Origin: Flavobacterium sharifuzzamanii
GTDB lineage: Bacteria; Bacteroidota; Bacteroidia; Flavobacteriales; Flavobacteriaceae
Length of the DNA: 64,000 bases
Direction of reading: 5' to 3'
NCBI RefSeq assembly: GCF_003254585.1
Contig: NZ_QJGZ01000039.1
Span: 248,001-312,000, forward strand
Below, piece after piece: positions 32,038 to 54,881 of the stretch (its first letter is position 1; each line of letters begins with the position of its first letter). A model generated the notes under the pieces. The model saw only the letters and a program-made list of their open reading frames with translations. It was not told where the DNA came from and did not search any database. The translations under genes and the position numbers were made by a program.

Positions 32038-32040
32038 AAA

Positions 32041-34089: not shown

Positions 34090-34101
34090 AACCACATTTT
34101 T

Positions 34102-35601: not shown

Positions 35602-35610
35602 TTGGTTTGG

Positions 35611-35630: not shown

Positions 35631-35635
35631 TTAAA

Positions 35636-35668: not shown

Positions 35669-35696
35669 AGTTTGGTTATTTTATAGCAATAACAAT

Positions 35697-37934: not shown

Positions 37935-38032
37935 AGATAGTTAGGTGTTTTTTGATTTAAAGACTTTTGATTCCTCACGCATCCTCTTTAAATACCGTTA
38001 ATACTATTTTTATGTTTGTGGTTTTATCTCTA

Positions 38033-39598
38033 TTATTGTTTGATTAAATTCAGCATTACAACATCATTTTCATTGATTTTGAATTCTCTGCTGAAAGTTC
38101 CTTTTCCGTCAATTGTAATTTTTTCTGTCGAAATTGGCGCGCCGTTATTTTTCTCTTTTATTGAATTGACTTGCACGCGTGTTAACTGACTTGGCTTATT
38201 CATTCTTAAATAATCAGCATACGCATCGTTTACTTTATAGCCAACTTTATATATTTCTAGTACATATTTTCCTTTCTGCATTCCGTCTACTTCAATTTTG
38301 ACTTTTCCTTTTTCTTTTGATGGAAGATCTTTAATGTAATACGTCTGATTCAGCTCTTTATCACCAGGATGTGTATTGGTAAAATCCCACAATAAAACTT
38401 GTACGTCGCCTTTTGCATTTTTGGAAGTCCAAGATGACTTATCTGAATTTTGAAGCTCTGTTTCTCCCAATTTATTCATTAAAAAATAAGAGAAATAAGC
38501 CGGTTTTTTAATTCCCTGTGTATTCAATAATCCGAAACCACCGTGAAATGGTGTAAATCTTGGCCCTGCTTCTTCAAAAATATCGGTAAAAACCCAATAC
38601 GACATGGAATTTGCAGCATTACCAACTTGTTTTAATTTCTGCAAAATATAAGCTGCAGAATGATAACTGTCGTGAATTGGATCTGCTGGTGTGTAAGACG
38701 CACTCCATTCTGTATAATGCAATTCTAAATTTGGTTTAGCCGACTCCGTAATCAATTTTCTAGAATTGATAATTTCTCCGCTCACACTCCATTCGTCCTG
38801 ATTTAAAATTGTTCCCGAAGTTCCGAATTCATCTAAATAACCATGTTTTACGCCATAAGTATGTGTCGAAACAAAATCCATCGGAACATTATTCTTCGCA
38901 CAAAAATCAATTGTTTCTGAAACCCATCCAGATCCCGCTGTTGCAGGTCCGCCCACTCTGTAAGCTGGATTTACTGCTTTTACACCGCGAGCTGCGTAAT
39001 CATATAATTTGAAATATTCTTCCTGAGTTCCTGTCCAAAATCCTGGAGATAAATTTGGTTCGTTCCAAACTTCAAAATACCATGTTTTTACTTCTTCTGC
39101 TCCATATCTTTCTGTGAAATGCTGAGTTAAGTTTTTAACTAAATCTTCCCATTTTTTATAATCTTTTGGAGGCGTAACATTTCCTTTCCACCAAAAAATG
39201 GTTTCTTTTCCGCTTGCTAAAGCATTTGGCATAAAACCCAATTCCACAAATGGTTTCATTTTTAGACTAATAATATAATCGAACAAAACGTCTACATATT
39301 GGTAATTGTATTCTGGATTTCCTTTTTCGTCTTCACGATAAACGGCCATATCATCGGTCAATAAACCATGAAATCGGATGTATTTAAAATCGCATTCTTT
39401 TTTTACCAATGCCAATTGCTGCTGCCAATCTGCACGAAGACCTTCATTTGCTCTTCCCGCACCGATGCATTCTTTAAACATGTTGTTTAATTTTCCAGCA
39501 GTTTTATTGAAATCTACTTTTATGATTCGGTTTTCATTTTGCCCAAACGAATAGATTGAACTAAATAAAACTCCTGCTAGTATTAAAAGTTTTTTCAT
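38033..39598 (-). CDS. GH39 family glycoside hydrolase (beta-xylosidase type)
   Basis: About 521 residues from MKKLLILAGVLFSSIYSFGQ (39598), a signal peptide; the upstream in-frame codons belong to a repeat. GH39 motifs are FKECIGAGRANEGLRADWQQ near residues 40-59, FKYIRFHGLLTDDMAVY, the acid/base Glu in WYFEVWNEPNLSPGFW (near residues 174-189), PMDFVSTHTYGVKHG and the nucleophile Glu in ELHYTEWSASYTPADPIHDS. GH39 includes beta-xylosidases and some arabinosidases or xylosidases for side chains. In this PUL it may act on side-chain pentose; the exact bond is uncertain. Confidence 0.9.
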   Translation of the reverse strand: MKKLLILAGVLFSSIYSFGQNENRIIKVDFNKTAGKLNNMFKECIGAGRANEGLRADWQQQLALVKKECDFKYIRFHGLLTDDMAVYREDEKGNPEYNYQYVDVLFDYIISLKMKPFVELGFMPNALASGKETIFWWKGNVTPPKDYKKWEDLVKNLTQHFTERYGAEEVKTWYFEVWNEPNLSPGFWTGTQEEYFKLYDYAARGVKAVNPAYRVGGPATAGSGWVSETIDFCAKNNVPMDFVSTHTYGVKHGYLDEFGTSGTILNQDEWSVSGEIINSRKLITESAKPNLELHYTEWSASYTPADPIHDSYHSAAYILQKLKQVGNAANSMSYWVFTDIFEEAGPRFTPFHGGFGLLNTQGIKKPAYFSYFLMNKLGETELQNSDKSSWTSKNAKGDVQVLLWDFTNTHPGDKELNQTYYIKDLPSKEKGKVKIEVDGMQKGKYVLEIYKVGYKVNDAYADYLRMNKPSQLTRVQVNSIKEKNNGAPISTEKITIDGKGTFSREFKINENDVVMLNLIKQ

Positions 39599-39620
39599 CT
39601 GAAAATGGCTTTGTTTATTT

Positions 39621-39712
39621 TTTGCCACAGATTAAAAAGATTCAAAAGGATTTCTTTTCTCTCGCAGATTTAGCAAATCATGCAGATTTAAATCTTTTTA
39701 ATCTGTGGCAAA
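39621..39712. repeat. inverted repeat TTTGCCACAGATTAAAAAGATT, copy 1
   Basis: 22-bp perfect arms (39621-39642 and 39691-39712). A diverged copy starting GCCACTGATTAAAAGGATTA and ending AATCTGTGGC lies at about 41887-41999, on the other side of the GH97 gene. Confidence 0.8.
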
Positions 39713-39794
39713 ATATTTTATTTTCTAATTAATATGTTAGACGCACTGCAGTGCGTCTCTACAGATTACGTTGTGCATAATCGTTGTGTTGAGT

Positions 39795-39827
39795 AAACCC
39801 GACAGGTTTTAAAAACCTGTCGGGTTT
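39795..39827. repeat. palindromic element AAACCCGACAGG...CCTGTCGGGTTT, copy 2
   Basis: Same palindrome as at 29128-29160 except for the central bases. It is located directly after the GH97 stop on the minus strand. Confidence 0.8.
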
Positions 39828-39856
39828 AACATCTAACTTTTAACTTCTCACTTACA

Positions 39857-41863
39857 TTACAATTTCTTGAATCTTACAGCTCCACCGCCAGCTCCACCTA
39901 AATTCAATTTTAGAGAATCTGTAGATTTTACTGTTTTCTTAGAAATTGCTACGGCTTCTGGATTATGTGTTTGATCTGTTCCTTCAGCATCAACATAAAT
40001 TTGTGCTTCGTAAGTTGCATTTGGATCTAAGAATGATAATGAAACATTTACGTTTCTTGGATTTTCATTTGTTAATGTTCCTAAATACCAATCAGCGCTA
40101 TTTCTATCTTTTCTTGCTGTTGTGATGTATTCCCCAATTTTTCCTTCTAAGATTTTAGTATCTTCCCAATCTGTTGGAACATCTTTTAAGAATTGTAAAG
40201 CTGGTTTTCCTTCGTAATTTTCTGGAAGATCTGCCAACATTTGAATCGGAGAATAAATCGTCACATACAAGGCCAATTGCTGTCCAACTGTTCCTTGAAT
40301 TCTTTTTCCTGGATAACCTTGTTTTACCTCAACATCAAAAATTCCAGGCGTGAAATCCATTGGGCCAGAAAGCAATCTTGTAAACGGAATAATGCTTAAA
40401 TGGTTTGGTGGATTTCCTTCGCTCCAAGCATTATATTCTTGTCCGCGCGCTGCTTCTCTTGAAACCATATTTGGATACGTTCTTCTTTCTCCTGTATCTT
40501 TAATAGATTCGTGGTATAAAACCGCCAAATCATATTGTGCTGCTTTTTCTAAAATATATCTGAAATAATTTACTCCAAATTGTCCGAAGTGCATTTGTTT
40601 CATGTTTAATTTAGAACCTACGTGACCAATTTTCACGGTATGAATTCCAAGTTTTTTGTATAAAGCAAAACCTTCATCAACTTCTTTTAAATAGTTAATT
40701 AAGTTTGAACCTGTTTCATGGTATCCGATTAATTCGATATTCTTTTTCTTTCCATATTCAACCACTTTTTCTAAGTCGAAATTGTCAGCGCTTTTCGTAA
40801 AACTGAACATGTGCATACGGTTTTCATACCAACCCGGTGTCCATCCTTTATTCCATCCTTCGATTAATAAATGGTGGAAACCTTCTTTTGCTGTAAAATC
40901 CATATATTCTTCAGCATGTTTTGTAGTTGCTCCTTGTTTATCACTTTCCCAAAAAGTATATTTCCCGATGTGCATTCCCCACCAGATTCCTAAATATTTG
41001 TATGGTTTGAAATAACTGTTTGTATTCTTTAATTTGTTTGGTTCGTTTAGGTTTAAAACCAAATAAGAAGTAATCAATTCTCCCGGATTTTCTCCAATTT
41101 GAAGCGTTCTCCAAGAAGAAGTGAACGAATCTTTCACACGAACTTTTACTCCATCAGCCCACGGCACTAAATCAGATTTTAGTTCTGTTCCTTTTGTGTT
41201 TACCAAAGTCATACTGGCAAAATCGATCAAGTTTGCTTCATGGAAACTTAACGCTAATCCACTTTTGCTTTCGATTGTTAACGGAGTTAAAACAGTATCT
41301 AAAGTACTTACTGGCGCATCTTTGAAAAGATATTCGTCACGGTTTTCTCTGTTTGCCGGAATCCACCAAGCTTTTCCGTCTTCTTTTAAGTTGAAAGTCG
41401 TTTTTTCATCCATGATGAAAATACTGTCTTTTACATTTTGTTTCGGATAAACATATCTAAAAGCCACCCCGTCATCGAAAGCACGAAACTGAATTTGTAA
41501 TTTTCTTTTGTTTCCAGTTTTCTGCTGTAAATCAACTACCAATTGATTGTAATGATTTCTGATGTTTTTCTTTTCTCCCCAAACTTGTTCCCAAGTTTCA
41601 TCAAACGTTGAAGTCTTTGCTCCTTTGATTTCAAAGTTTGAACTTAAATCTTCGTTTCCTTTTAATACAAATCCCATATCTGACGGAGAAATCACTTCGG
41701 TCTTTCCGTGAGAAACTGCATATTTTGGAGCGTTTTTTACTAACTCAAATTTGATTGTATTCTTTCCGTTTGGCGATGCCAATTCGTAAGCGTTTTTAGT
41801 TTTTTGACTGTAGCCAACTGCTATTGAAAACAGTACAGCTGGGAGAACTAGATAGTTTTTCAT
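39857..41863 (-). CDS. GH97 family glycoside hydrolase (alpha-glucosidase/alpha-galactosidase)
   Basis: About 668 residues from MKNYLVLPAVLFSIAVGYSQ (41863), a signal peptide. The N-terminal super-beta-sandwich (ELASPNGKNTIKFELVKNAP, DDGVAFRYVYPKQ, WWIPANRENRDEYLF) is followed by the catalytic barrel (YLGIWWGMHIGKYTFW, FHHLLIEGWNKGW, IELIGYHETGSNLINYLKEV, YHESIKDTGERRTYPNMVSR, EAARGQEYNAWSEGN). HETGS and the Glu residues of EAARGQE resemble the inverting, calcium-dependent SusB type, so I favour an alpha-glucosidase. Its role in a xyloglucan locus is not obvious; it may serve a mixed or related glycan. Confidence 0.92.
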   Translation of the reverse strand: MKNYLVLPAVLFSIAVGYSQKTKNAYELASPNGKNTIKFELVKNAPKYAVSHGKTEVISPSDMGFVLKGNEDLSSNFEIKGAKTSTFDETWEQVWGEKKNIRNHYNQLVVDLQQKTGNKRKLQIQFRAFDDGVAFRYVYPKQNVKDSIFIMDEKTTFNLKEDGKAWWIPANRENRDEYLFKDAPVSTLDTVLTPLTIESKSGLALSFHEANLIDFASMTLVNTKGTELKSDLVPWADGVKVRVKDSFTSSWRTLQIGENPGELITSYLVLNLNEPNKLKNTNSYFKPYKYLGIWWGMHIGKYTFWESDKQGATTKHAEEYMDFTAKEGFHHLLIEGWNKGWTPGWYENRMHMFSFTKSADNFDLEKVVEYGKKKNIELIGYHETGSNLINYLKEVDEGFALYKKLGIHTVKIGHVGSKLNMKQMHFGQFGVNYFRYILEKAAQYDLAVLYHESIKDTGERRTYPNMVSREAARGQEYNAWSEGNPPNHLSIIPFTRLLSGPMDFTPGIFDVEVKQGYPGKRIQGTVGQQLALYVTIYSPIQMLADLPENYEGKPALQFLKDVPTDWEDTKILEGKIGEYITTARKDRNSADWYLGTLTNENPRNVNVSLSFLDPNATYEAQIYVDAEGTDQTHNPEAVAISKKTVKSTDSLKLNLGGAGGGAVRFKKL

Positions 41864-41879
41864 GTTTTTTGGTATTATA

Positions 41880-42070
41880 TTTTTTTTGCCACTGATTAAA
41901 AGGATTAGAAAGGATTTTTTCTTTATGATTTTTTCACGCAGTCCCAAAAGCTATCGGGAGCAGATTTTATTTTAATCTTTTTAATCCTTTAATCTGTGGC
42001 TATATTTTTTCGCTACGAATTACACCAATTAACACCAATTCAATTCGTGGGAATTCGTGAAATTCGTGGC
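41880..42070. repeat. repeat-filled gap between GH97 and GH31
   Basis: It contains the second copy of the GCCAC(A/T)GATTAAAA inverted repeat (about 41887-41999) and a run of AATTCGTGG / CACCAATT words (42012-42070). No gene. Confidence 0.55.
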
Positions 42071-42078
42071 TAACTTTT

Positions 42079-44478
42079 TTATTTTACCCACTCCGTTTTA
42101 AAAGTGGTTTTTCCGTTTAGCGGATTTGCTACTACATCGAAATTGTTTCCAGTTTTATTCACTTTTATTTCTTGTACTGCATCGCCTTCTGGTAAAAATA
42201 CTTTGGCTGTTGCCGAAGTGGTTTTGTCGCTTGCGTAAACTTTCAACGTTAATTTGCTCCAATCCATATCTTTTGTAGACTGCGCTAAACCGATGTGTGG
42301 AATTGCAGTTCCGTCTTTAATTAAAACTACGATCGGTACTTCACCCGCTTTAATTTTATGCCATCCCGATTGATATACTTTTTTAGTTTGATAATCAATC
42401 CAAGTTCCTTCTGGAAGGTAAACGTCTCTTTCTTCAACTTCTTCAAAAAGCGGCGCAACCAAAATACTTGAACCAAATAAATATTGATTATCTACTAACC
42501 AAGCTCCCGGATCGTTTGGATATTCTACAAAAAGAGCACGCATCATTGGCAATCCTTTTTGAGAACTTTCTTTTGCTTGAGCGTAGATGTATGGCATTAA
42601 TTCGTAGCGCATATTATCAGCTTTTCTAAATCCTTCCAAGAATTCTTTGCTGTACAACCAAGGTTCGCGAGGCGGTTCTCCGTGGCTTCTTACGTGCGAT
42701 GTGAACATTCCGAATGGCGTCCATCTTCTGTAAATATTCTCAGGAGATTTAGTTGCGAAACCTCCAACATCATGGCTCCAGAAACTAAATCCACTTAATC
42801 CTAATGAAAGTCCGCCACGTAATTCTGCCGACATTGCTCCGTTTGAAGTTTCAGAATCTCCTCCCCAATGTAAAGGATAACGCTGAGATCCTGCCCAAGT
42901 ACTTCTAGCCCAGATTAAAGTATATCCTTTTTCTTTCTGAGTAATTTCTGCAACGGCTTTGTTGTATCTTAATGGATATAAATTGTGCTCATAGAAACCT
43001 GTTCTTCCAGAATGGTAAATTCCGTCCGGCGGAGCTGCTTCTCCAAAATCTACTTTGAAAACTGCAACACCTTCATCAAATAACTTTTTCAATTTTCCTT
43101 GGTACCAAGAAATCGTTTCTGGATTTGAGAAATCTAAAACAGCATCTTCGTACGGAAGATTTCCTTTTCTGTCTCTTACCGCTAAATTTTTATCCATGAT
43201 TTCAGGAAACAAAGTGTTCTTTGGCGTGAAATAAGGCAACTGCCAAAGACAAACTTGGAAACCATCTTTCTTTAAATCAGACATCATTTTTGTTGCATCT
43301 GGAAAACGAGATTTTGCAAACTCATAGTTGTTTCTCCAATCTACATCAAACCAGCCTGTATCAAAGTGAATAACGTCGGTTGGAATTTTGTATTTACGTA
43401 AATCTCTGGCAACGTCACGTCCTTCTTTTTCTGAGAAATACGTAATACGACTCATCCAGAAACCGAATGACCAAAGTGGCGGCATTGCGGCTTTTCCTGT
43501 CAAATTCGTGTATTGATCTAAGATATCTTTTGGTTCTCCGATAAAGAAAAATAAATCGGCTTCGTCGTCTCCAATGTACATTTCGTTGGCACTTGAAAAA
43601 TATTTTCCAAAGTCAACTGTAATTGGTGTTGAATGGTGCATGAAAACTCCATAACCACGGCTGCTCATGTAAAACGGAATCGGTTTGTACATTGTTTCAT
43701 TTTGGATTCCGTTGGCGTCATCTGTCCATAAAACTACTTTTTGTCCGCGTTTGTTGAATTGTGTAAATGATTCACCACAACCAAATATTTTTTCGTCTGG
43801 TTCTAAACTGAACGCCGCGCCCATACTTCTTGAATAATCGCTATTTCTGCGAACATAAGAAAACGGAAGTGTTGGTGTATACGTGTTTTTAAAATCAGTA
43901 TCGTGAAGTGTGCTTGTCAGTAATTTTCCTTTTTCATCATAGATTTTTACGTGCCACGGTTTTGTCAAGATTTCAACTCTTCCGTGTTTGCTTGTATAAC
44001 TATGACCTCCTTCGATTTTAGCATATTTCCATAATTCAGGATGATTTGGAGCAACGCCGTCAACCAGCATTAAAGACTCTTTTTGCGGATGAAATTGTGG
44101 TCCAGAAGTAGTTTTTATTCTAACTGTTCTATCTGAAACAAACTGAATTTCGAATGGCAAAACAGGAGATTCTGCATATTCTGTTGTTGGAAATTCGTTT
44201 GCTTTTTCAACATCTGGTTTCATCATCATGTTGTTGAAAGCCTGACGTGTTTTATAATTGTATCTTAAATATTTAATCGTTCCTTTTCCTGTTGCAGGAT
44301 CAAAAGAAGCTAATTCGTCTGCAAAATAAAAAGTGTTAAGATAGTTCTGAAAATCTTTACTGATATCGATTGGAGCATTTAATACATCTGCATTTTGAAT
44401 TTGAGCATTAGCATTTGGAACTGCTAAAAATCCAAACATGACAGCAGAAAATAATGCGGTTAGTTTTGAGTTTTTCAT
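42079..44478 (-). CDS. GH31 family alpha-xylosidase
   Basis: The 799-residue protein has a signal peptide ending NANAQ (residue about 26). The GH31 architecture is N-terminal beta-sandwich (GCGESFTQFNKRGQKVVLWT near residue 235), barrel, and C-terminal beta domains. Substrate motifs are PPLWSFGFWMSRITYFSE, DVIHFDTGWFDVDWRNNYEF, and the nucleophile Asp in VAVFKVDFGEAAPPDGIYHS (near residue 475). The acid/base Asp is in HWGGDSETSNGAM, and FWSHDVGGF follows. FDTGWF and KVDFGE are typical of alpha-xylosidases such as YicI. It would release the alpha-1,6-xylose of xyloglucan oligosaccharides in the periplasm. Confidence 0.95.
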   Translation of the reverse strand: MKNSKLTALFSAVMFGFLAVPNANAQIQNADVLNAPIDISKDFQNYLNTFYFADELASFDPATGKGTIKYLRYNYKTRQAFNNMMMKPDVEKANEFPTTEYAESPVLPFEIQFVSDRTVRIKTTSGPQFHPQKESLMLVDGVAPNHPELWKYAKIEGGHSYTSKHGRVEILTKPWHVKIYDEKGKLLTSTLHDTDFKNTYTPTLPFSYVRRNSDYSRSMGAAFSLEPDEKIFGCGESFTQFNKRGQKVVLWTDDANGIQNETMYKPIPFYMSSRGYGVFMHHSTPITVDFGKYFSSANEMYIGDDEADLFFFIGEPKDILDQYTNLTGKAAMPPLWSFGFWMSRITYFSEKEGRDVARDLRKYKIPTDVIHFDTGWFDVDWRNNYEFAKSRFPDATKMMSDLKKDGFQVCLWQLPYFTPKNTLFPEIMDKNLAVRDRKGNLPYEDAVLDFSNPETISWYQGKLKKLFDEGVAVFKVDFGEAAPPDGIYHSGRTGFYEHNLYPLRYNKAVAEITQKEKGYTLIWARSTWAGSQRYPLHWGGDSETSNGAMSAELRGGLSLGLSGFSFWSHDVGGFATKSPENIYRRWTPFGMFTSHVRSHGEPPREPWLYSKEFLEGFRKADNMRYELMPYIYAQAKESSQKGLPMMRALFVEYPNDPGAWLVDNQYLFGSSILVAPLFEEVEERDVYLPEGTWIDYQTKKVYQSGWHKIKAGEVPIVVLIKDGTAIPHIGLAQSTKDMDWSKLTLKVYASDKTTSATAKVFLPEGDAVQEIKVNKTGNNFDVVANPLNGKTTFKTEWVK

Positions 44479-44502
44479 TGGTTAATAATCTAGATGTTAG
44501 TT

Positions 44503-44597
44503 TATCCTAACAGATTTTAGAAACCTGTTAGGTGTTTTATTTATATCTTAATAAAAATTTATTGATACCTAACAGGTTTTGGAAACCTGTTAGGATA
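44503..44597. repeat. paired palindromes CCTAACAG...CCTGTTAGG, copy 2
   Basis: Palindromes at 44506-44532 (one arm with changes) and 44568-44594, in the same layout as the pair at 31787-31889. They fill the gap between GH2 and GH31. Confidence 0.8.
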
Positions 44598-44609
44598 GAT
44601 CGTAACTTA

Positions 44610-47096
44610 TTATTCTGTTGTAATTACAATTGTAGATTGTTTCAATCCGTTTGCACTTGCGGTTAATTCCAATCTTCCTGATTGATCTCCCGATTGTACA
44701 ATTACCAAACATTTTCCAGCCAAAGCTGTATGTTTAGTTCCTTTATAAGGTTCATGGCTAACTGGATCTCCGCTACAAACGCCTACGATTTTTCCGTTTC
44801 CTTTTAATGAAAAGTTGATTTCGTTATTTGCGTTTGGAGCTATCGTTCCATCAGCATCTAAAATATCTACTGTGATAAATGACAAATCGTTTTTGTCTGC
44901 TTTTATAGTACTTCTATCCACAGTTAGTTTTAATTGAGAAGGATTTCCAGCTGTTTTGATTTCCTTTTCTAAAACCACTTTTCCATCTTTACGAGAAATT
45001 GCTTTTAGAGTTCCAGCTTCAAAAGGAATTCGCCACATTACGTGCAAATCGTCTCCTTTTTTGCTTCTTTTTCCAACTGATTTTCCGTTTACGAAAAGTT
45101 CAACCTCATCGGCTTTATTATAATAAGCCCAAACATCAACAGTTTGTCCTGCTTTCCAGTTCCAATGCGGAAAAATGTGCAAAACCGTTTTGTCTGTCCA
45201 TTCGCTTTGGTACATATAATACACGTCTTTCGGGAAACCGGCTAAATCAACAATTCCGAAATACGAACTTACTGATGGCCATTCGTACGGAGTTGGTTCT
45301 CCAATATAATCGAAACCAGTCCAAACGTACATTCCTGCCAAGAAATCATGTTTTTTAATGATTTTCCAAGTCGCTTCGTGTGTAGATCCCCAAGGCGTTT
45401 GCACTTGGTCGTAAGCCGAAACGGTATTTCCAGGATTTCCTTCTGTAAATTTAAGATCCCATCTTACTGGCCATTTTTTGATAGTATCTGAAACAGCATC
45501 GTAATAACCTCTTGTCTGCAAACCTGAAGTAGTTTCAGTTGCAATGAAAGGCGTGTTTGGGAAATTTTTCAAATGATGTTCGAATGTCTGATGCGCATAA
45601 TTGTATCCTATTAAATCTAAAACTCCAGATCCCGCAAGCGGATTAATGGATACATCCTTTTTCTCAAATTGTAAAGTCACGGCATCAATATTCATATTTA
45701 CAGGAGGATTCATCCCTGCAGTCAACGGTCGTGTTTTATCATATTGACGCGTAATTGCCGCCAATTCTTTAGCAATTTCAACACCTGTTTCACTCCATTG
45801 TTCCGGAATTTCATTACCAATACTCCACATAAAAATGCTTGCATGATTTCGGTCGCGCAACAATTGATCGATTAAATCTTGTTTGTGCCATTTGTCCCAA
45901 TCGTTTCCGTAATCGTATTTGGTTTTGGTCTGTTTCCACATATCAAAAGCTTCATCCATGACAATGAAACCCATTTTGTCGCAAAGTTCTAAAAGTTCTG
46001 GAGCAGGCGGATTATGAGAAGTTCTGATTCCGTTTACTCCCATTTCTTTCAGAATCTCCAACTGACGTTCGATCGCACGTGTGTTGATTGCAGAACCTAA
46101 TGGCCCTAAATCGTGGTGCATACAAACACCTTTTATTTTAACCTGCTTTCCATTCAAAATGAAACCTTTGTTCAAATCGAATTTAAAATCTCTGATTCCG
46201 AAAGTGGTTTTATATTGATCAATGATTTTATCGTCAAGTGAAATTTCGGTAACTGCGGTATACAATTCCGGGTTTTCATCTGACCATAAAATGGGATTTT
46301 CAACTTCCGCCGATTGATTCAGCGTTTGGTTTTCGCTGGCATTGATTGTTATATCTTGAGTAACCGATGTTACTTTTTTGTCTTCTTTAAAAATTGTGGT
46401 AGTTACCGTTGCTTTTTTATTTTCTTTGTATTGATTTTTTATTGTGGTTTCAATACTTACAGAAGCTTTTTCGGCTGTAACTTTTGGAGTTGTAATATAT
46501 GTTCCCCATTGTCCCACATGAAGTTTGTCTGTGGTTTCGATCCAGACATTTCTAAAAATTCCTGAACCCGAATACCAGCGTGAATTAGGTTGCTTTGAAT
46601 TGTCAACCTTAACAATTATTTCGTTGTTTTTGTCTCCGTAATTTAAATATGGTGACATATCATATTGAAAACCTATGTATCCGTTTGGACGTTTTCCTAA
46701 GTAATGACCGTTTACCCAAACTTCGCTATTTTTGTAAACGCCGTCAAAAGTAATTGAAGTGATTTTGGTGCTGTCTTCTGCAGCTACTTTGAATGTTTTT
46801 TTGTACCAGCCCAAACCTCCGTTAAGCGATCCTCCGCCATAACCGCCAGGACTTTTTTCATCAAATTTTCCTTCAATGCTCCAATCATGCGGAACATCGA
46901 GAGTTCTCCATTTTGTTGAAGCTCCAATAGTATCTTTATCAACAATGCTGTCATTAAGATGAAAGCTCCAGTCTGCATTAAAAGAAACTTTTCGGTTTAC
47001 AAATGCATCTTCTTTTTTAGTGCAGGAATTCAAGAAAAAAACTCCAGCTGCGATTGCCCATAAACTTATATTTTTTATGTTTTTTCTAATATGCAT
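44610..47096 (-). CDS. GH2 family beta-galactosidase (lipoprotein)
   Basis: The 828-residue protein has a lipoprotein signal (IAAGVFFLNSCTKKED, Cys25). GH2 domain order is visible: sugar-binding jelly roll (WRTLDVPHDWSIEGKFDEKS, VWVNGHYLGKRPNGY), immunoglobulin-like domain, and barrel with KGVCMHHDLGPLGSA and GVNGIRTSHNPPAPELLEL. The acid/base Glu is in IFMWSIGNEIPEQW and the nucleophile Glu in PFIATETTSGLQTRG. DUF4982- and BIG2-like C-terminal domains follow (VDVWAYYNKADEVELFVNGK, LKLTVDRSTIKADKNDLSFI). It would remove the galactose exposed after defucosylation. Confidence 0.95.
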   Translation of the reverse strand: MHIRKNIKNISLWAIAAGVFFLNSCTKKEDAFVNRKVSFNADWSFHLNDSIVDKDTIGASTKWRTLDVPHDWSIEGKFDEKSPGGYGGGSLNGGLGWYKKTFKVAAEDSTKITSITFDGVYKNSEVWVNGHYLGKRPNGYIGFQYDMSPYLNYGDKNNEIIVKVDNSKQPNSRWYSGSGIFRNVWIETTDKLHVGQWGTYITTPKVTAEKASVSIETTIKNQYKENKKATVTTTIFKEDKKVTSVTQDITINASENQTLNQSAEVENPILWSDENPELYTAVTEISLDDKIIDQYKTTFGIRDFKFDLNKGFILNGKQVKIKGVCMHHDLGPLGSAINTRAIERQLEILKEMGVNGIRTSHNPPAPELLELCDKMGFIVMDEAFDMWKQTKTKYDYGNDWDKWHKQDLIDQLLRDRNHASIFMWSIGNEIPEQWSETGVEIAKELAAITRQYDKTRPLTAGMNPPVNMNIDAVTLQFEKKDVSINPLAGSGVLDLIGYNYAHQTFEHHLKNFPNTPFIATETTSGLQTRGYYDAVSDTIKKWPVRWDLKFTEGNPGNTVSAYDQVQTPWGSTHEATWKIIKKHDFLAGMYVWTGFDYIGEPTPYEWPSVSSYFGIVDLAGFPKDVYYMYQSEWTDKTVLHIFPHWNWKAGQTVDVWAYYNKADEVELFVNGKSVGKRSKKGDDLHVMWRIPFEAGTLKAISRKDGKVVLEKEIKTAGNPSQLKLTVDRSTIKADKNDLSFITVDILDADGTIAPNANNEINFSLKGNGKIVGVCSGDPVSHEPYKGTKHTALAGKCLVIVQSGDQSGRLELTASANGLKQSTIVITTE

Positions 47097-47233
47097 AGGT
47101 ACTTTTTATTTTTTTGGAATTTGAAGATAGAAATAAAAAACGGTTTCATTTATTTCCTCATAAAATAATTTAAGTCTCAGTCTTAAAGAACATTACGAAT
47201 GCTTTTAGTACTGAGACTTCAAAACTAACTAAC

Positions 47234-48094
47234 TTACGATTTCGGCTTGTAGTGGAATACAATTAGACAAACTCCTTCACCAGTTCTACTTTGGTCACGC
47301 ACTACTGCTAATCTTAAAGATGTTGCTGTAAGCTCAACCACTTTTACACTGATCCAGTTGCTGCAGTCTCCATAATAGTCTCCACCGTAAAGCATTTGTA
47401 CTCCACCGTTAAAAATCAATTTATTATTTGCAATATCAAATGAATAGGTTCCTTTTTTTGTTGTTTGATTGTTGTTTGCAATCGCTGTTTGAGTTACCGA
47501 TGTATTGTAATTTCCATTTAAATCAAAATACATTTCTCCCCAGTTTTTATTAGCCATTACCCAAGAGTTGCTTGCGTAATCTGGCAACCAGCTCCAGTTA
47601 TCTCCAGACGTAGCTGGGTAGTCTAAACCTGCCCATCCTACTGGATCTGTAAAATCTAAAACCCAAGTTTTTCCGTCAACACCATTTGTAAGCATTTGCC
47701 ATTTTGGGTCTCTAAAATAAGTTTCGTCATTTTCTGCAATATTAACTACAACTGGTGCGGCTTCTACAGAACCTCCTCTTGTGTAAGCAGTGTAATAAAT
47801 AGTATATTTTCCGGCAAAAGGCAGAATTACTTGATCGCTGCTTTTGTTAGAATGTCCTAATTCATTTCCTGCTGCATCTACATATTTCCAAAATGGAATA
47901 ACAGTCGGATCATCACTTTTAAAATTTACAAGATTTTTGTTTGTAGCATCTTGCGTGATAGAAAACTTAAGTGTCTCTGGTGTCAAGGTAACTGCTGGAA
48001 GGCTTTCGCGATCCTCAATTGCCTCACAAGAAAATAACAGCGAACCAATTGTAACAGCTGCTATTAAAATATATAATATACGTTTCATAGTCAT
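47234..48094 (-). CDS. SusE/surface glycan-binding-type lipoprotein
   Basis: The protein is 286 residues, or 284 if translation starts at the second ATG (48088). Lipobox AAVTIGSLLFSCEAIED is near residue 23. Residues 30-120 are beta-rich and Ig/PKD-like (LPAVTLTPETLKFSITQDA, IPFWKYVDAAGNELG, FAGKYTIYYTAYTRGGS). The rest is a second beta domain rich in Trp and Tyr (WVLDFTDPVGWAGLDYPATS, WSWLPDYASNSWVMANKNWG), consistent with a carbohydrate-binding surface. It directly follows SusD, the position of SusE-type surface glycan-binding proteins. Sugar binding is inferred. Confidence 0.82.
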   Translation of the reverse strand: MTMKRILYILIAAVTIGSLLFSCEAIEDRESLPAVTLTPETLKFSITQDATNKNLVNFKSDDPTVIPFWKYVDAAGNELGHSNKSSDQVILPFAGKYTIYYTAYTRGGSVEAAPVVVNIAENDETYFRDPKWQMLTNGVDGKTWVLDFTDPVGWAGLDYPATSGDNWSWLPDYASNSWVMANKNWGEMYFDLNGNYNTSVTQTAIANNNQTTKKGTYSFDIANNKLIFNGGVQMLYGGDYYGDCSNWISVKVVELTATSLRLAVVRDQSRTGEGVCLIVFHYKPKS

Positions 48095-48105
48095 TTTGTT
48101 TTGAA

Positions 48106-49686
48106 TTAATTCCAGCCTGGATTTTGAGTTATTGTACCATTTGAAAGAATGATCTGCGATTGCGGTAATGGCAACCAGCCTTGAGTTTCTGTTCTAAAAG
48201 TAACTGCAAACTGAGAACCTCCAGCAGTGTTATCAATAGCTGCTTTCATTGCAGGCATTCCTTGTCTGATTAAGTCGAAGTAACGAAGTCCTTCAAGAGC
48301 CAATTCTAATTGACGCTCTTTCATGATGTTTTCTATACTAGCTGTTTTTCTGTGAGTAGTATTTTTAAATGCACGATCACGTACTCTGTCAAAATCTGCT
48401 TGCGCTAAAGCTGGATTAGATGATAAATTCAATTCAGCAGCCATCAATAATACATCAGAGAAACGAATAATAGCATAATCTTGGTAGTTGTCAATCTGGA
48501 AGTTTCCTCCGTTTGCTTCTACAACAGCTGTTCCTGCCGCGTTAGTAATTGGACAATATTTTTTCCAAGAATATCCTGTGTACTGACGCTGTTCTCTAGC
48601 TTGTGCATCAAAATTCAAACCTTCGCCTGCATAATCAATAAAAGAAGCTGCTTTTCTAGTATCACCGGCTTCATAAGCATTTACTAAAGCAGGATTAACT
48701 GTAGCTCCTCCCCATCCTGTTGCATATTTTCCAATTGAACCTCCACGCGGTGCGATGTTTACTTGGAAACGGTTTCCTTCGTGAAGATCCCAATTTCCTT
48801 TTCCTGAACCGTTAAAACGAACCGCCCAAACCATTTCAGTATTATCTTCTCCAGCAAAATTTTCAAAAGAAGCCGCTAACCAAAGATTTGCAAAATCAGC
48901 CACTAAACCGTGTCCGCTATTATTTACTGCATCATTAATGTAAGCTGTTGCTTCTGTTTTAGAAACCACACCAGCTAAATCTGCTTTACCATAAGTTCCT
49001 GTATAAAACAAGAATGTTCTAGCCAAATATGCTTCTGCTGCCCATTTTGTAATACGCCCGTAATTAGCATTTCCTGCTTGTGAATAGTTTTCTGGCCCTA
49101 AATTATCTGCAGCAAATTTTAAATCTTTTGCAATTAAAGCATAAGTAACTTCTGGAGCTTGTCTTGGCAATTCGAATTCGCTTGTTGTTACAGTATGATC
49201 AAGAGGAATGATATCTCCAAACATTTTAGCTGCTGTAAAATGGAAGTGCGCTCTTAAGAAACGTGCTTCAGCTTCGTAACGAGTTTTTAAAGCTGTATCA
49301 GAACCCCAGTTTACTTTGTCTATATTTTCTAACAAAATATTAGCTCTGTAAATTCCTAAGTAAGCATTAGCCCAAACATCTTTGTTCATGTCTTTGTCTG
49401 AAACGTACAAGAAACGATCCCATTCGATATCCGTTTGAGCATCGGCAATACCATAACCTCCAAAGCAATCATCAGAAGCTTGTTCACTTATTAATAACGG
49501 TCCGCCGTAAGCCTCGCGCTGTAAAACATCGTAAACTGCCACAAGACCTTCAAAAGCATCAGAAGGTGTTTTATAAAAATTGTCAGTTACCTTATCTGTA
49601 TATGGTTCATTTTCCAAGAAATCCTGCGAGCAAGCACCTAAAGTAAGTAAGCTTGAAAGCGCAAATAATTTTATATATCTTTTCAT
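48106..49686 (-). CDS. SusD/RagB family nutrient-binding outer-membrane lipoprotein
   Basis: About 526 residues from the ATG at 49686 (MKRYIKLFALSSLLTLGACS); the longer frame would need a TTG. Lipobox LGACS puts the lipidated Cys near residue 19. SusD features are FLENEPYTDKVTDNFYKTPS near residues 23-42, ARFLRAHFHFTAAKMFGDI, the TPR-like helices around RITKWAAEAYLARTFLFYTG, DNYQDYAIIRFSDVLLMAAE, and the C-terminal RQLELALEGLRYFDLIRQGM. It acts with the SusC transporter as the lid that captures glycan oligomers. Confidence 0.96.
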   Translation of the reverse strand: MKRYIKLFALSSLLTLGACSQDFLENEPYTDKVTDNFYKTPSDAFEGLVAVYDVLQREAYGGPLLISEQASDDCFGGYGIADAQTDIEWDRFLYVSDKDMNKDVWANAYLGIYRANILLENIDKVNWGSDTALKTRYEAEARFLRAHFHFTAAKMFGDIIPLDHTVTTSEFELPRQAPEVTYALIAKDLKFAADNLGPENYSQAGNANYGRITKWAAEAYLARTFLFYTGTYGKADLAGVVSKTEATAYINDAVNNSGHGLVADFANLWLAASFENFAGEDNTEMVWAVRFNGSGKGNWDLHEGNRFQVNIAPRGGSIGKYATGWGGATVNPALVNAYEAGDTRKAASFIDYAGEGLNFDAQAREQRQYTGYSWKKYCPITNAAGTAVVEANGGNFQIDNYQDYAIIRFSDVLLMAAELNLSSNPALAQADFDRVRDRAFKNTTHRKTASIENIMKERQLELALEGLRYFDLIRQGMPAMKAAIDNTAGGSQFAVTFRTETQGWLPLPQSQIILSNGTITQNPGWN

Positions 49687-49698
49687 GATTTTCAAATT

Positions 49699-52600
49699 TT
49701 AAAAGTTAACATTCAGACCCATCAAATAGGTTCTTGGCTGAGGATAATATCCAACATCAATTCCTTTAGCCCAAGACTGATTTACGTTTCCGAAACCAAT
49801 TTCTGGATCCATTCCTTTGTATTTTGTGAATGTATAAAGGTTGTTTCCTGCAACATATAATCTGAATTTACTGAAGAAACTAAGTTTTGTTGTTAGTTTC
49901 GTTAAATCACATCCGATTGTAGCATTTTTAATTCTGAAGAAATCTGAATCCTGAATATATAAATCTGAGAATTTAGTGTAATTCCCATTTGCATCAGTTC
50001 CGTAAGTTACTCTTGGAATTCTGTTCGAAGTTCCTTCAGTTGTCCATCTTCCTAACACATCTGTAGTGTTGTTTGTATAAGCACGTGTGTAATCGTGAAC
50101 TCCAAAAACGTTTTGTCCTCCTGCGATACCGTAAGTATTAATAGAGAAATCAAAAGCTTTGTATGATAATTCTAAATTAACACCATAGTTAATATCTGGG
50201 TTTGGATCACCAATTTTAGTTTTATCGTTTGCATCGATTTTTCCGTCATTATTTAGATCTACGAAACGAACGTCTCCTGGCTGTGCATTTGGCTGAACAC
50301 CTGCTGCAACTTCAGTAGCATTTTGGAAAATTCCGTCTGTTTTCAATCCGTAGAAATAACCCATTGGTTTTCCAACCTCAACACGGTTCATCTCGTCTAA
50401 ACCTTGAAACAATACGTTTGATTCTCCGTGAATGATTCCTTCGTTGTTAGCAATTTTCAACACTTCGTTTTGGTTACGAGAAAGGTTTGCATTGATGGCA
50501 AAATTCCAGTCTTTTCCAAAACGTGTGCGGTAAGATAAACCAATTTCAAAACCTTTGTTGCTTACGTCACCACCATTAATATAAGGTGCAGTTGCTCCAG
50601 CATACGTTGGGATAGATGCCAATACTAACCAATCTTTGGTTTTCTTGTCATAGTAATCGAAAGTTAAAGTAAAGTTGGTAAACAATGTAGCATCAAAACC
50701 TAAGTCTAACTGCTCAGAAGTTTCCCATTTTAAGTTACGGTTTGCCAATTGGTCAGGGCTTGAACCTACTAAAAGAGTTTCATCACCAGTTCCGAAATGA
50801 TATGTTTTATCAGTAGAGTTTACAGTTGACATATATGCAAATCTTCTTGCAAATTGGTCGTTACCATTTTGTCCCCAGCTTGCTCTTAATTTGAAAGTAT
50901 TTAAAACTTTGTTTTCTTTGAAGAAAGCTTCTTTATCTAAATTCCATCCCGCAGAGAACGATGGGAAAATAGCGTATTTATTATCTGGACCAAATTCTGA
51001 TGAACCGTCACGACGAACTGTTGCAGAGAATAAGTATTTATTGTTGTAATCATACAATAAACGCCCGAAGTAAGACTGGATTGAGTAATCTTTACGATTT
51101 CCTTTTACCACATTAGATGTCGGGTCTTTTGCATTATCTAAATAGGCATGTTCAAAATCATCAAAAATTAAGTTTCTTCCTTGCCCTTCCATATAATCAG
51201 ATGTATTCTTTTTAGCAGAAGTACCCACTAATACATCAAAATTATGAGCATCGGCAATGTTGAATTTGTATTGAAGTGTATTCTCAAAAATCCATCCTAA
51301 AGATTTTGTAGCACTTTGAGTTACGCTAGAAACTGTATTATTATCATTTGAAGAAAGCGAATAAACTGGTCTGAAAGAACGGTAATTGCTGTCTGTCATA
51401 TCAACACCATAACTAGTTCTGAAAGTAAAGTTTTTTGCAAATTTCAATTCAGCAAAAATGTTACCTACATAACGATTTGTTTTTGTCTGATTGAAGTTGT
51501 TGTAGTATAAAGATCCAACCGGGTTGCTGATATCTTGAGAAATAATAGAATGTGCAAAATCTCCATTTTCGTCATACGCCTGATCTATCGGAGCTGCGTT
51601 TAAGAAACTTCTAATTGCGTTGCTGTAAATACCATCATCTGCAACACCGCTAGATTTGATATTTGATAAAGTGAAGTTTTCACCAATTTTTAAATATCCT
51701 TTAATTACTTCAGAAGTAGAGTTTACTGTAAAAGTAACACGATCGTATTGAGATTGGTTAGTCGATCCTCCAATCATACCTTCCTGTCCGTAGTAAGATA
51801 AACCAGTTGCAATAGTAGATTTTTCATCACCTCCAGTAATCAAAAGAGAGTGATTTTGTTTCATTGCACCTTCGTTGAATAAATCTTTTTGCCAATCATG
51901 ATCAGGAAATGAAGCAATTTGCTCTTTAGTATATAGTGGCGCATATCCAGAATTTACACGAGCTTCGTTCATGATTGTTGTATATTCCTGTGTATTCATC
52001 AAATCTAGTTTTTTAGCAATCTGCTGAAAACCTGTATAAGAACTAAAAGACACATTCATTTTACCATCTTTTCCTTTTTTAGTTGTAACCAAGATAACTC
52101 CGTTTGCTGCTCTTGCTCCATAGATAGAAGCTGCAGAAGCATCTTTTAAAACGTCAACCCTTTCAATAACAGATGGATCAAGATATCCAATTCCGTTATC
52201 TACCACTACACCATCAACTACATAAAGCGGATCACTGTTTCCTGCTGTACCTGCTCCACGAATATTTACCACCATATTCGCTCCTGGCTGCCCAGAAGAT
52301 GAAGTTACAGAAACCCCAGAAGCTTGACCTTGTAAAGCATTTACAACATCAAGACTCGCAACCTGCTGAATGTCTTTTCCAGACACCAAAGAAGTTGCCG
52401 CAGTATTTACTTTCTTCTTTTGAGTACCGTAACCGATTACTACAATTTCTTTAAGTTCTGCCGTTTCTGGCTGTAAAACCACATTGACAACTTTTTGAGT
52501 TCCAACCGTAATATTTTGCGCCTTGAAACCTACAAAAGTGATTACCAAAACATCTCCTGTTTTAGCCTCAACTTTATATTTTCCGTCAAAATCGGTAACA

Positions 52601-52788
52601 GTACTCGATTTTGTTCCCTGTACTTGTACAGTTGCACCTGGAACTCCAAATCCGTCTTCGGAAGAGGTAATTGTCCCACTTACAGTTTTAGATTCTTGAG
52701 CAAATCCAAACTGCATCATAAATACGCTAAGCAGCACCGCCATAAAATATGGAAGCTTTGTTGTTTTAATACAATTTTTGCTTTTCAT
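49699..52788 (-). CDS. SusC/RagA family TonB-linked outer-membrane transporter
   Basis: The 1029-residue transporter has a long signal peptide (ending MMQFGFAQES, about residue 31), then a CarboxypepD_reg-like domain (GTITSSEDGFGVPGATVQVQ, about residues 38-115). The SusC plug signature LKEIVVIGYGTQKKK is near residues 111-125, and the plug follows (NMVVNIRGAGTAGNSDPLYV, DASAASIYGARAANGVILVT). The barrel ends ...PRTYLMGLNVNF. It is 12 bases from SusD and is the import channel for the oligosaccharides of this PUL. Its start is at 52788 after a 40-base AT-rich leader. Confidence 0.97.
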   Translation of the reverse strand: MKSKNCIKTTKLPYFMAVLLSVFMMQFGFAQESKTVSGTITSSEDGFGVPGATVQVQGTKSSTVTDFDGKYKVEAKTGDVLVITFVGFKAQNITVGTQKVVNVVLQPETAELKEIVVIGYGTQKKKVNTAATSLVSGKDIQQVASLDVVNALQGQASGVSVTSSSGQPGANMVVNIRGAGTAGNSDPLYVVDGVVVDNGIGYLDPSVIERVDVLKDASAASIYGARAANGVILVTTKKGKDGKMNVSFSSYTGFQQIAKKLDLMNTQEYTTIMNEARVNSGYAPLYTKEQIASFPDHDWQKDLFNEGAMKQNHSLLITGGDEKSTIATGLSYYGQEGMIGGSTNQSQYDRVTFTVNSTSEVIKGYLKIGENFTLSNIKSSGVADDGIYSNAIRSFLNAAPIDQAYDENGDFAHSIISQDISNPVGSLYYNNFNQTKTNRYVGNIFAELKFAKNFTFRTSYGVDMTDSNYRSFRPVYSLSSNDNNTVSSVTQSATKSLGWIFENTLQYKFNIADAHNFDVLVGTSAKKNTSDYMEGQGRNLIFDDFEHAYLDNAKDPTSNVVKGNRKDYSIQSYFGRLLYDYNNKYLFSATVRRDGSSEFGPDNKYAIFPSFSAGWNLDKEAFFKENKVLNTFKLRASWGQNGNDQFARRFAYMSTVNSTDKTYHFGTGDETLLVGSSPDQLANRNLKWETSEQLDLGFDATLFTNFTLTFDYYDKKTKDWLVLASIPTYAGATAPYINGGDVSNKGFEIGLSYRTRFGKDWNFAINANLSRNQNEVLKIANNEGIIHGESNVLFQGLDEMNRVEVGKPMGYFYGLKTDGIFQNATEVAAGVQPNAQPGDVRFVDLNNDGKIDANDKTKIGDPNPDINYGVNLELSYKAFDFSINTYGIAGGQNVFGVHDYTRAYTNNTTDVLGRWTTEGTSNRIPRVTYGTDANGNYTKFSDLYIQDSDFFRIKNATIGCDLTKLTTKLSFFSKFRLYVAGNNLYTFTKYKGMDPEIGFGNVNQSWAKGIDVGYYPQPRTYLMGLNVNF

Positions 52789-53078: not shown

Positions 53079-53116
53079 CTTATGGTCAATTTGAATTTAT
53101 CTTATGGTAAATTTGA
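53079..53116. promoter_or_regulatory. direct repeats upstream of SusC (candidate regulator sites)
   Basis: CTTATGGTCAATTTGA (53079-53094) and CTTATGGTAAATTTGA (53101-53116) differ at one base and are 22 bp apart, about two helical turns. This is the expected geometry for two protein subunits on one face of DNA near a promoter. Confidence 0.6.
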
Positions 53117-53261
53117 CTACAAGTGTAAAACAAATTTTCTATATTAACAAAATATTAGGGTTATTTTTTTTTGATTCTGATTAATCATAATCCATTTTTA
53201 TTAATGTTGTAAAATCTGAAGTAGAATTGAAATAAAAAATATATAAAAATCAAAGATTTAT

Positions 53262-53344
53262 AAAATTGACAATCAGTCGTTTAAGAAACTACCTGAATTG
53301 AAGAGCTTTTCTTACTTGTATTTAAAAGACTGATTATCAATTTT
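53262..53344. promoter_or_regulatory. inverted repeat between SusC and NUDIX regulator genes
   Basis: 23-bp arms at 53262-53284 and 53322-53344 with two mismatches (core AAAATTGAYAATCAGTC), separated by 37 bases. It is an operator pair for the adjacent regulators or a long hairpin. The arms are too far from the coding ends to be a terminator. Confidence 0.6.
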
Positions 53345-53427: not shown

Positions 53428-54144
53428 ATGGTTGAAAATGTAGACGACAAAACTGCCCAAAAAAATGAAAACAGCGCGATGAATGCTATCACGATTGACT
53501 GTGTTATTTTTGGTTTTGACAAAGGCAGTCTTGAAGTACTTTTGGTGCAACATGCCGAAGGTATCAGTAAAGGAAAATGGGGACTTCCGGGTGGATGGAT
53601 TTATAAAAAAGAAAGCACAGACAATGCTGCTCACCGCTTATTGAATGAGCTTACTGGTCTTGATAATATTTATTTGGAACAGCTGAAAGCATTTGGAGAT
53701 CCAGACCGTTTTCCGCTGAGACGTGTTATTACAATTGGGTATTATGCTCTTGTAAAAAGAGAAGATTATAACATCAAAGCAGGTTTTACTGCGGCAGATG
53801 CTCAATGGTACAAGATCGAAAATATTCCAGATTTGATTTATGATCATAATGAAATTTTAGATTACAGTATAAAACATCTTAGAAATAAAGTTCGTCAGAC
53901 ACCAATAGGTTTTAATCTGCTTCCAGAAAAATTCACCTTATTGCAATTAATGCAACTGTATGAAGAAATTTTAGGAATCGAAATGGACAAACCCAACTTT
54001 AGAAGAAAAATTCTTCATATGAAACTATTGGTTGCATTAGACGAAAAACAGCAAGATGTTTCTCATCGGGCAGCTCAGTTGTACAAATTTGATCCCGAAA
54101 TCTATAAAAAACTCACTGAAAAGGGATTCAATTTTGAGTTCTAA
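53428..54144 (+). CDS. NUDIX-type sugar-responsive transcriptional regulator (copy 1)
   Basis: About 238 residues from the ATG at 53428 (MVENVDDKTAQKNENSAMNA); a TTG at 53407 is possible. The NUDIX-like sensor is about residues 20-155 (ITIDCVIFGFDKGSLEVLLV, KGKWGLPGGWIYKKESTDNA). The box HRLLNEL lacks the REUxEE glutamates needed for hydrolysis. The C-terminal winged helix (LLQLMQLYEEILGIEMDKPN, FRRKILHMKLLVALDEKQQD) matches the NrtR/AraR group. Bacteroidota AraR-like proteins of this type bind sugars. Being divergent from SusC, it is the likely PUL regulator. Confidence 0.9.
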   Translation: MVENVDDKTAQKNENSAMNAITIDCVIFGFDKGSLEVLLVQHAEGISKGKWGLPGGWIYKKESTDNAAHRLLNELTGLDNIYLEQLKAFGDPDRFPLRRVITIGYYALVKREDYNIKAGFTAADAQWYKIENIPDLIYDHNEILDYSIKHLRNKVRQTPIGFNLLPEKFTLLQLMQLYEEILGIEMDKPNFRRKILHMKLLVALDEKQQDVSHRAAQLYKFDPEIYKKLTEKGFNFEF

Positions 54145-54179
54145 TTTTCAATGCAAATTACTAACAAGACAATAAAAAA

Positions 54180-54881
54180 TTGACAGAAATAAGTACTAAC
54201 CATCACAAACCAGCCGTAGACGGCATCACAATTGACTGCGTTTTCTTCGGATTTAATAAAGAGAGTCTCGAAGTTCTCTTGGTGCAGCATGCCGAAGGTG
54301 AAAGTAAAGGCAAATGGGGACTTCTTGGCGGATGGCTTCAAATAGACGAAAGTGCAGATAATGCTGCTCAACGAATTTTACAGGAACTTACTGGTCTTGA
54401 AAACATCTATTTGGAACAGTTAAAAGCCTTTACAGATCCGCAGCGTGTTCTGGAAAGACGCGTGGTTACTATTGGTTATTATACTTTGGTCAATAGAGAA
54501 GATTATAATATTAAAGCCAGCTTAAAGGTTTTCGAAGCAAAATGGTTTAAGATAAATGAAATTCCTGAGCTGATTTTTGACCACAATGAAATTTTAAATT
54601 TCAGTTTATTACAGCTTCGAAACCGTGTACGTCAGGCACCAATTGGGTTTAATCTTCTTCCAGAAAAGTTTACTTTACTGCAGTTGATGCATTTGTATGA
54701 AGAAATTCTTGGAATCGAATTGGATAAATCGAATTTTAGACGAAAAATTCTTCACATGAAACTCCTGACAGAGCTGGATGAAAAGCAAAAAGACGTTTCG
54801 CATCGAGCTGCTAAACTTTATAAATTTGACGATCAGATGTACAAAAAATTAACTGAAAAAGGGTTTAATTTTGAATTTTAA
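54180..54881 (+). CDS. NUDIX-type sugar-responsive transcriptional regulator (copy 2)
   Basis: A 233-residue paralogue of the preceding gene, alike over the whole length (GITIDCVFFGFNKESLEVLL, KGKWGLLGGWLQIDESADNA, LLQLMHLYEEILGIELDKSN). It must start at a TTG (54180): an in-frame stop lies 18 bases upstream and no ATG occurs before the domain. The NUDIX box AQRILQEL again lacks the catalytic glutamates. It lies 35 bases after copy 1, so the two are likely co-transcribed. Different residues in the sensor part could mean two ligands, or heterodimers. Confidence 0.88.
   Translation: MTEISTNHHKPAVDGITIDCVFFGFNKESLEVLLVQHAEGESKGKWGLLGGWLQIDESADNAAQRILQELTGLENIYLEQLKAFTDPQRVLERRVVTIGYYTLVNREDYNIKASLKVFEAKWFKINEIPELIFDHNEILNFSLLQLRNRVRQAPIGFNLLPEKFTLLQLMHLYEEILGIELDKSNFRRKILHMKLLTELDEKQKDVSHRAAKLYKFDDQMYKKLTEKGFNFEF

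Follow-up and report, generated by a model that had tools for sequence, protein, structure and literature searches.

The window analysed here, a 64,000-nucleotide stretch of Flavobacterium sharifuzzamanii DNA, contains two tandem regulator genes, Nud1 and Nud2 (hereafter copy 1 and copy 2), next to a xyloglucan PUL of the XyGUL type (Table 1). In agreement with the first-pass annotation, the coordinates describe paralogues of 238 and 233 residues that are separated by 35 bases and lie divergent from susC. The two proteins are identical at 168 of 222 aligned positions (76%). The TTG start proposed for copy 2 also holds: the first base of an in-frame TAA lies 18 bases before the TTG at 54180, and no in-frame ATG or GTG occurs between them, which leaves TTG as the sole usual start. 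Copy 2 is present within 1.5 kb in 24 of 30 loci, with TTG as the only start in 15 and ATG in 9. Among 57 distinct copy-2 genes, a set partly overlapping these loci, 20 are TTG-only and 37 have ATG, and the TTG of the 20 lies 14–16 residues ahead of one common anchor. The TTG start of copy 2 is conserved among relatives. A frameshift or missed ATG was considered, an out-of-frame ATG lying at 54152, but was rejected, since TTG recurs as the sole start at one conserved place (15/24; 20/57).

Table 1. Features of the regulator pair, its upstream region and the adjoining locus, in window coordinates
Feature	Position	Strand	Description
Nud1 / copy 1	53428..54144	+	ATG start, 238 aa; XylR-type member of the NrtR/AraR Nudix regulator family, by gene neighbourhood of relatives
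Nud2 / copy 2	54180..54881	+	TTG start, 233 aa; paralogue of copy 1
In-frame TAA 5' of copy 2	54162..54164	+	forces TTG start
Candidate operator site A, CTTATGGTAAATTTGACTACAAG	53101..53123		overlaps putative -7 box of divergent susC promoter; 15-locus footprint
Candidate operator site B, CTTATGGTCAATTTGAATTTATC	53079..53101		22 bp from site A; right half degenerate
Putative -7 box, susC promoter, TACACTTG	53120..53127	-	conserved block
Putative -33 box, susC promoter, TTTTG	53148..53152	-	20 bp from -7 box; conserved in most of 15 rows
Inverted repeat	53262..53344		23-nt arms 91% complementary, 37-nt loop
susC, first gene of divergent XyGUL operon	49699..52788	-	named from place and sequence; SusD adjoining by Pfam
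Rest of XyGUL	29379..49695	-	GH95, SASA-type esterase, GH5 near cel5D, GH3, GH39, GH97, GH31, GH2, 286-aa protein, SusD
Third AraR/NrtR-type paralogue	19923-20657	-	box RELHEE; absent from the first-pass annotation

The Flavobacterium XyGUL (Fjoh_0772-0782) is described as needed for growth of F. johnsoniae on xyloglucan and as conserved in plant-associated Flavobacterium (PMC11892949). The window locus resembles it in the GH5 gene nearest cel5D (E 1e-171), GH95, GH3, GH31, GH39, an acetylesterase-type gene and a SusCD pair (PMC11892949). The main text of that paper contains no word starting with regulator or nudix, and no mention of repressor, 0783 or 0784. Our literature searches found no paper joining Nudix transcriptional regulators with Flavobacterium polysaccharide utilization, nor one joining Nudix, XylR and Flavobacterium; the sole match for a xylose regulator with NrtR in Flavobacteri- was the regulon paper on B. 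thetaiotaomicron (PMC3878776). The family and the XyGUL type are known, and the pair is real, conserved and a good candidate for regulating a known locus.

Protein family, sugar pocket and DNA contacts

By their domain composition, both copies are NrtR/AraR-type sugar regulators, a known family. NUDIX, NrtR_WHD and AraR_C score above the Pfam cut-offs in both proteins and follow the NrtR/AraR domain order (3.9e-11, 1.5e-27 and 1.1e-15, respectively, in copy 1). The best solved relative by sequence is BtAraR (BT0354, Bacteroides thetaiotaomicron; 5bs6, E 9e-54 for copy 1 and 4e-54 for copy 2; further structures 5dd4, 5ddg and 5deq), which likewise combines a Nudix-like sensor with a winged helix. 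A predicted model of copy 1 (mean pLDDT 77.7) retrieved AraR chains as its first six PDB matches, ahead of SoNrtR. Classical NrtR (SoNrtR, 3gz5/3gz6) is alike in fold and domain order, with 29% identity in the structural match to the copy 1 model; its effector is NAD or ADP-ribose, unlike the sugar proposed for the copies.

The first-pass annotation placed NUDIX-type regulators with degenerate boxes beside a xyloglucan PUL, and this is borne out for both copies. Its statement that the REUxEE glutamates are lost applies to the first and last, so that two of three box glutamates are replaced and the catalytic motif is impaired, but not to the middle one, which stays together with the Arg (RLLNEL in copy 1, RILQEL in copy 2). 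The BtAraR box, RVLAEL, is in the same state. AraR proteins are described as having two or three box glutamates replaced and as binding sugar in the Nudix domain, a degenerate box being the norm of this branch; bound sugar turns the winged helices off DNA, and BtAraR then loses it (PMC4666351).

Pocket residues were counted in 82 copy-1 and 57 copy-2 proteins, after rows identical in the last 150 residues and rows below 60% identity had been dropped. Two sugar-holding residues of BtAraR, Arg86 and His131, are invariant in 82/82 copy-1 and 57/57 copy-2 proteins. Arg34, which touches arabinose O4 in BtAraR, is replaced by His in every protein of both sets, so that the Arg34, Arg86 and His131 combination of AraR orthologues is retained at the latter two positions only. 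Position 49, Phe in BtAraR, is Trp in all 82 copy-1 proteins and varied in copy 2 (W 38, Y 8, N 8, D 2, L 1). Position 129, which points to sugar C2 in BtAraR, is Tyr in 82/82 copy-1 and Phe in 57/57 copy-2 proteins. Among the DNA-contact residues, compared in 30 copy-1 and 24 copy-2 rows, K179, N181 and R205 are kept, while R180, the intercalating residue of BtAraR, has become Ser or Pro, K184 Arg and K204 His. The window genes further differ from BtAraR in being duplicated and in lying beside a xyloglucan PUL rather than araBAD.

D-xylose and L-arabinose differ at C4, and for this reason the change at residue 34 is suggestive for xylose; it may hint at sugar choice and does not amount to a rule. 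A stricter pocket rule, in which His34/Trp49/Tyr129 denotes xylose, was tried and rejected. With rows identical in the last 150 residues dropped, this set occurs in 38 of 39 xyl-linked copy-1-type rows, and Arg34/Phe49/Phe129 occurs in 9/9 ara-linked AraR rows. The AraR residue set is nevertheless carried by the one exception (L204; L and G numbers are our handles for loci and genomes) and by 3/3 xyl-linked rows of a second set (L286, L287 and L290). These four xylA/xylB-linked regulators indicate that His34/Trp49/Tyr129 is not required for the xylose link.

Upstream sequence, xylose genes and age of the pair

An alignment of 15 upstream regions revealed a nearly invariant block over the putative susC -7 box, for which we take TAnnTTTG as the consensus; the block holds sites A and B. 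The conserved sequence CTTATrGTnAAnTTGACTACAAG overlaps this box and heads the divergent operon whether its first gene is susC, xylB, xylE or another. A site at this place argues for repression. Once identical operator strings and sequences identical in the last 150 residues had been dropped, 73 of 80 distinct copy-1-type upstream regions agreed with the pattern at 17 or more of its 21 positions, 69 of them at 19 or more, leaving seven without a good site. Since the pattern was written from copy-1-type loci, an AraR-type set serves as a useful control: 5 of its 27 genes matched at least 17/21 positions and one, the AraR-type gene of the own genome, at least 19/21.

Site B is seen in Flavobacterium loci, and the consensus drawn from 19 other-genus rows lacks it; a similar left half occurs in the single other-genus rows L157 and L226. 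The main target promoter of AraR is described as having two tandem 21-bp sites (PMC4666351), which sets a precedent for two neighbouring sites here. Two sites also accompany a single regulator in one locus (L058), so that the number of sites does not track the number of proteins. The conserved sequence also precedes a GH74-type gene in three genomes (L142, L143 and L146). In each of them the gene product is BNR/sortilin-like and ends in a secretion tail; for L146 the best solved relative is a BNR-repeat glycosyl hydrolase (E 9e-235), and named xyloglucanases come next. A distant relative from another family (L284, 55% identical) has the 23-bp site CTTATAGTAAATTTTACTACAAG, with 10 of 11 dyad pairs counted by eye, in a stretch that holds an AraC-type gene, GH8 and SusC/SusD-like genes.

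Two uses of the pattern were abandoned. The dyad of the pooled consensus fails as a lone proof of an operator, because its 7 of 10 pairs equal the commonest best value in 2000 shuffles; L284 alone has a near-perfect dyad. A genome-wide regulon could not be drawn by pattern search, which gave no excess of further sites in the own genome: 496 matches with up to three mismatches versus 478 for the reversed control, and 49 versus 73 for an 18-base pattern, whose one exact match is this site. The sole exact and the sole one-mismatch match listed in the own-genome search both fall inside this operator.

Some further upstream elements were observed. The inverted repeat between the operator and copy 1 has the arms TTGACAATCAG and CTGATTATCAA, which are largely conserved in relatives, with a variable loop and an RNA fold z of -2.46. 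Elsewhere in the own genome (C39:133950 and 131979; L056 10951 and 8980), the AraR-type gene has on either side a site closely resembling the XyGUL operator, the first ahead of an arabinofuranosidase-type gene and the second next to an aldose-epimerase-type gene; cross-talk of arabinose and xylose regulators is possible there. Extra good operator-like sites lie downstream of the regulator gene(s) at L140 9652 and L061 6184, with no GH74-type gene seen adjoining; the genes next to the L140 site are a DinB-type gene and others. These sites are perhaps remnants left after loss of the GH74 gene present at this place in L142, L143 and L146.

The gene neighbourhood of relatives was surveyed in the best 80 of 502 relatives, so that the counts lean to close relatives. 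Two of these loci (L155 and L166) are two places on one contig, and our other genome samples may overlap the set; one comprises 121 genomes, 79 of them with a match at E 0.001. In the 80-locus survey, xylA and/or xylB lies within 8 kb of the regulator in 36 loci: 23 among the 65 Flavobacterium-type loci and 13 among the 15 from other genera. The other genera include Mangrovimonas, Gillisia, Galbibacter, Salinimicrobium, Neptunitalea, Christiangramia and Gramella. In 6 of 15 relatives (G103, G094, G024, G112, G030 and G033), xylB and xylA are situated between the regulator and susC on the susC strand; the site, with at most one mismatch, stands before xylB in five of them and before a XylE-type gene in G024 (L087). 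The first divergent gene passes the NCBIfam cut-off for the D-xylose transporter XylE in 4/4 loci scanned (L087, L156, L157 and L160), which adds to the xylose reading, and it encodes a Sugar_tr protein in three further loci (L158, L162 and L163). Two Sinomicrobium loci have no xylAB in reach and a GH31 gene as the first divergent gene, and the xyl-linked relatives L157 and L172 also have araA/araB in reach.

The window locus itself lacks xylBA. The own-genome xylAB is found elsewhere (C14:16599), is 65% and 45% identical to the linked type, and lies behind a GntR-type gene near GH43 and MFS genes; in that region the operator pattern gave two-mismatch matches only, none of them upstream of xylAB. 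The xylose link of the window pair is therefore borrowed from relatives. The first-pass annotation had left the ligand open among xylose, galactose, fucose and oligomers, and the neighbourhood of relatives points to copy 1 being the XylR, or xylose-type regulator, of Flavobacteriaceae. BtXylR (BT0791) is described as a predicted xylose regulator of the NrtR family with an xylRBAE operon (PMC3878776, PMC4666351). Copy-1 relatives are like it by family and description: they have xylB and xylA as neighbours and, in some loci, a gene for a XylE-type transporter as well; the window locus differs in carrying a PUL and a second regulator copy.

Although the pair had been called unusual, it is the commonest state in near relatives: in the survey of the best 80 of 502 relatives, 57 of the 65 Flavobacterium-type loci carry a pair, against none of the 15 others. 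Copy 2 was seen in the Flavobacterium-type loci only, and SusC- and SusD-like genes are in reach of all 57 pairs, the SusC with at least 46% identity. Several species carry one copy only. In a tree with long outgroup branches and an uncertain rooting, 24 copy-2 rows are separated by one branch (97/96) from 30 copy-1 rows. Copy 2 forms a clade in this tree; copy 1 may or may not be one.

The two domains of the copies have diverged to different extents. Within genomes (n=24), copy 1 and copy 2 are identical at 0.694 of Nudix and 0.898 of winged-helix (wHTH) positions. The corresponding values are 0.901 and 0.902 among copy-1 relatives and 0.841 and 0.937 among copy-2 relatives. In sets filtered as for the pocket residues, eight differences are fixed at 90% or more, seven of them in the sensor, at BtAraR positions 46, 63, 82, 87, 99, 102 and 129; the sole one in the winged helix is Met/Leu 177. 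Gene conversion was considered as a cause of the alike DNA-binding domains. Synonymous differences between the copies, which are probably near saturation, amount to 0.455 (Nudix) and 0.433 (wHTH) within genomes and to 0.475 and 0.460 between genomes. Since synonymous change is similar in both domains and merely 0.02–0.03 lower within genomes, conversion does not explain the shared DNA-binding domain and was rejected. As judged from these sequence comparisons, copy 2 is an old, retained duplicate. Copy 2 is also found where copy 1 is missing, in L173 next to XyGUL genes and in L089 and L090 alone adjoining lepA, which argues that it is more than a helper. A lone copy-1 relative lies by lepA in Flavobacterium oncorhynchi (L152 8001-8714), where neither the XyGUL panel nor the operator pattern gave a match close by; this looks like loss of the locus with the regulator left behind.

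Proposed mode of action and its alternatives

We consider it fairly probable that copy 1 is a XylR and copy 2 a duplicate with an altered pocket, and that both repress the XyGUL through a shared operator array. The two sister switches would probably keep the xyloglucan locus silent as long as no sugar such as xylose is present. In this proposal, both genes would encode dimeric, catalytically dead Nudix sugar-sensing repressors. Without sugar, copy 1 would occupy sites A and B, where the divergent promoter has its putative -7 box and start region, and thereby block the XyGUL operon, whose first gene is susC in the window and xylB or xylE in relatives. A pentose, most likely D-xylose, would be freed from xyloglucan side chains by the GH31 enzyme; bound in the Nudix pocket, it would turn the winged-helix domains and release the DNA, following the mechanism that was solved for L-arabinose and BtAraR. 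Copy 2, with its DNA-binding head kept and its sugar pocket changed, would most likely share the operator of copy 1 and differ from it in ligand range or affinity, acting either as its own dimers or in mixed dimers.

The same DNA-gripping end and the changed pocket of copy 2 suggest one control site served by two sensors. More tentatively, the pair may form a two-sensor gate on one promoter, in which the operator array integrates xylose and a second xyloglucan signal, possibly via mixed dimers. The second signal might be a further side-chain sugar, an oligomer or xylose at a second threshold, and selection would have held the DNA-binding head the same while the sugar pockets parted. It is rather unlikely, though worth weighing, that both copies instead sense the same pentose with about equal affinity and persist for dosage or as back-up, in which case the changes in the pocket would be neutral. 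Such redundancy would fit the constancy of Arg86 and His131 in both copies and the sufficiency of one copy in several species; however, the split predates the species compared, sensor differences are fixed in or next to the pocket (46, 87 and 129), and position 49 is Trp throughout copy 1 and varied in copy 2.

The drift at position 49 of copy 2 could also point to a sensor-impaired partner, which would set basal repression or cooperativity through mixed dimers or by holding one site regardless of sugar. The presence of two adjacent sites and the conservation of copy 2, lower than in copy 1 for the sensor and higher for the DNA-binding domain, are compatible with this role. We judge it unlikely nonetheless, given that Arg86 and His131 are constant in 57 copy-2 proteins, that copy 2 stands without copy 1 in L173, L089 and L090, and that two sites also exist with the single regulator of L058. 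In Bacteroidota PULs, activators often do the switching, and both copies might be activators in turn. The position of the conserved site over the putative -7 box and start region, and the loss of DNA described for BtAraR upon sugar binding (PMC4666351), make this quite improbable. That the pair senses NAD or ADP-ribose like classical NrtR is hardly credible: the NCBIfam NtrR match that would favour it is weak (141 and 128 bits, where the cut-off is 400), the copies are closer to BtAraR than to SoNrtR, and the regulator neighbourhoods contain the XyGUL, xylBA and xylE rather than NAD genes. The pair itself adjoins the XyGUL and lepA; araBAD linkage, as expected for an AraR, belongs to the separate AraR-type gene of the own genome (C39), and a separate paralogue at 19923-20657 fits the NAD role better.

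With repression by a XylR and its altered duplicate as the favoured reading, a published, plant-root-relevant type of xyloglucan locus gains a candidate regulator together with a candidate control region of 45 bp. The relatives suggest an order of events: a xylose regulator with xylE, xylB and xylA came first, a PUL was added behind them, a second regulator followed, and some lineages ended up without xylBA at the locus. If this order holds, a monosaccharide switch was recruited for running a polysaccharide locus. The paralogue pair would also constitute a natural experiment, in which sugar specificity changed and DNA specificity did not.

Further paralogues were noted in the window and among relatives. 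The box of the 19923-20657 protein is nearly intact, with REUxEE present, and its gene lies in a run with ribose-phosphate diphosphokinase-like and ADP-ribosyl-hydrolase-like genes, an RNA 2'-phosphotransferase and a nicotinate phosphoribosyltransferase. This protein resembles an NAD-type NrtR. A 74% identical relative in G024:C60 (L059 7237-7965, minus strand) stands beside a KDPG-aldolase-type gene and a PfkB-type kinase, with no XyGUL enzyme match within the 20-kb stretch searched. Two more paralogues, 65–66% identical, were found at L063 9325-10044 and L302 (G509:C3), one by a hybrid two-component regulator and GH97 and the other near GH95- and GH31-like genes.
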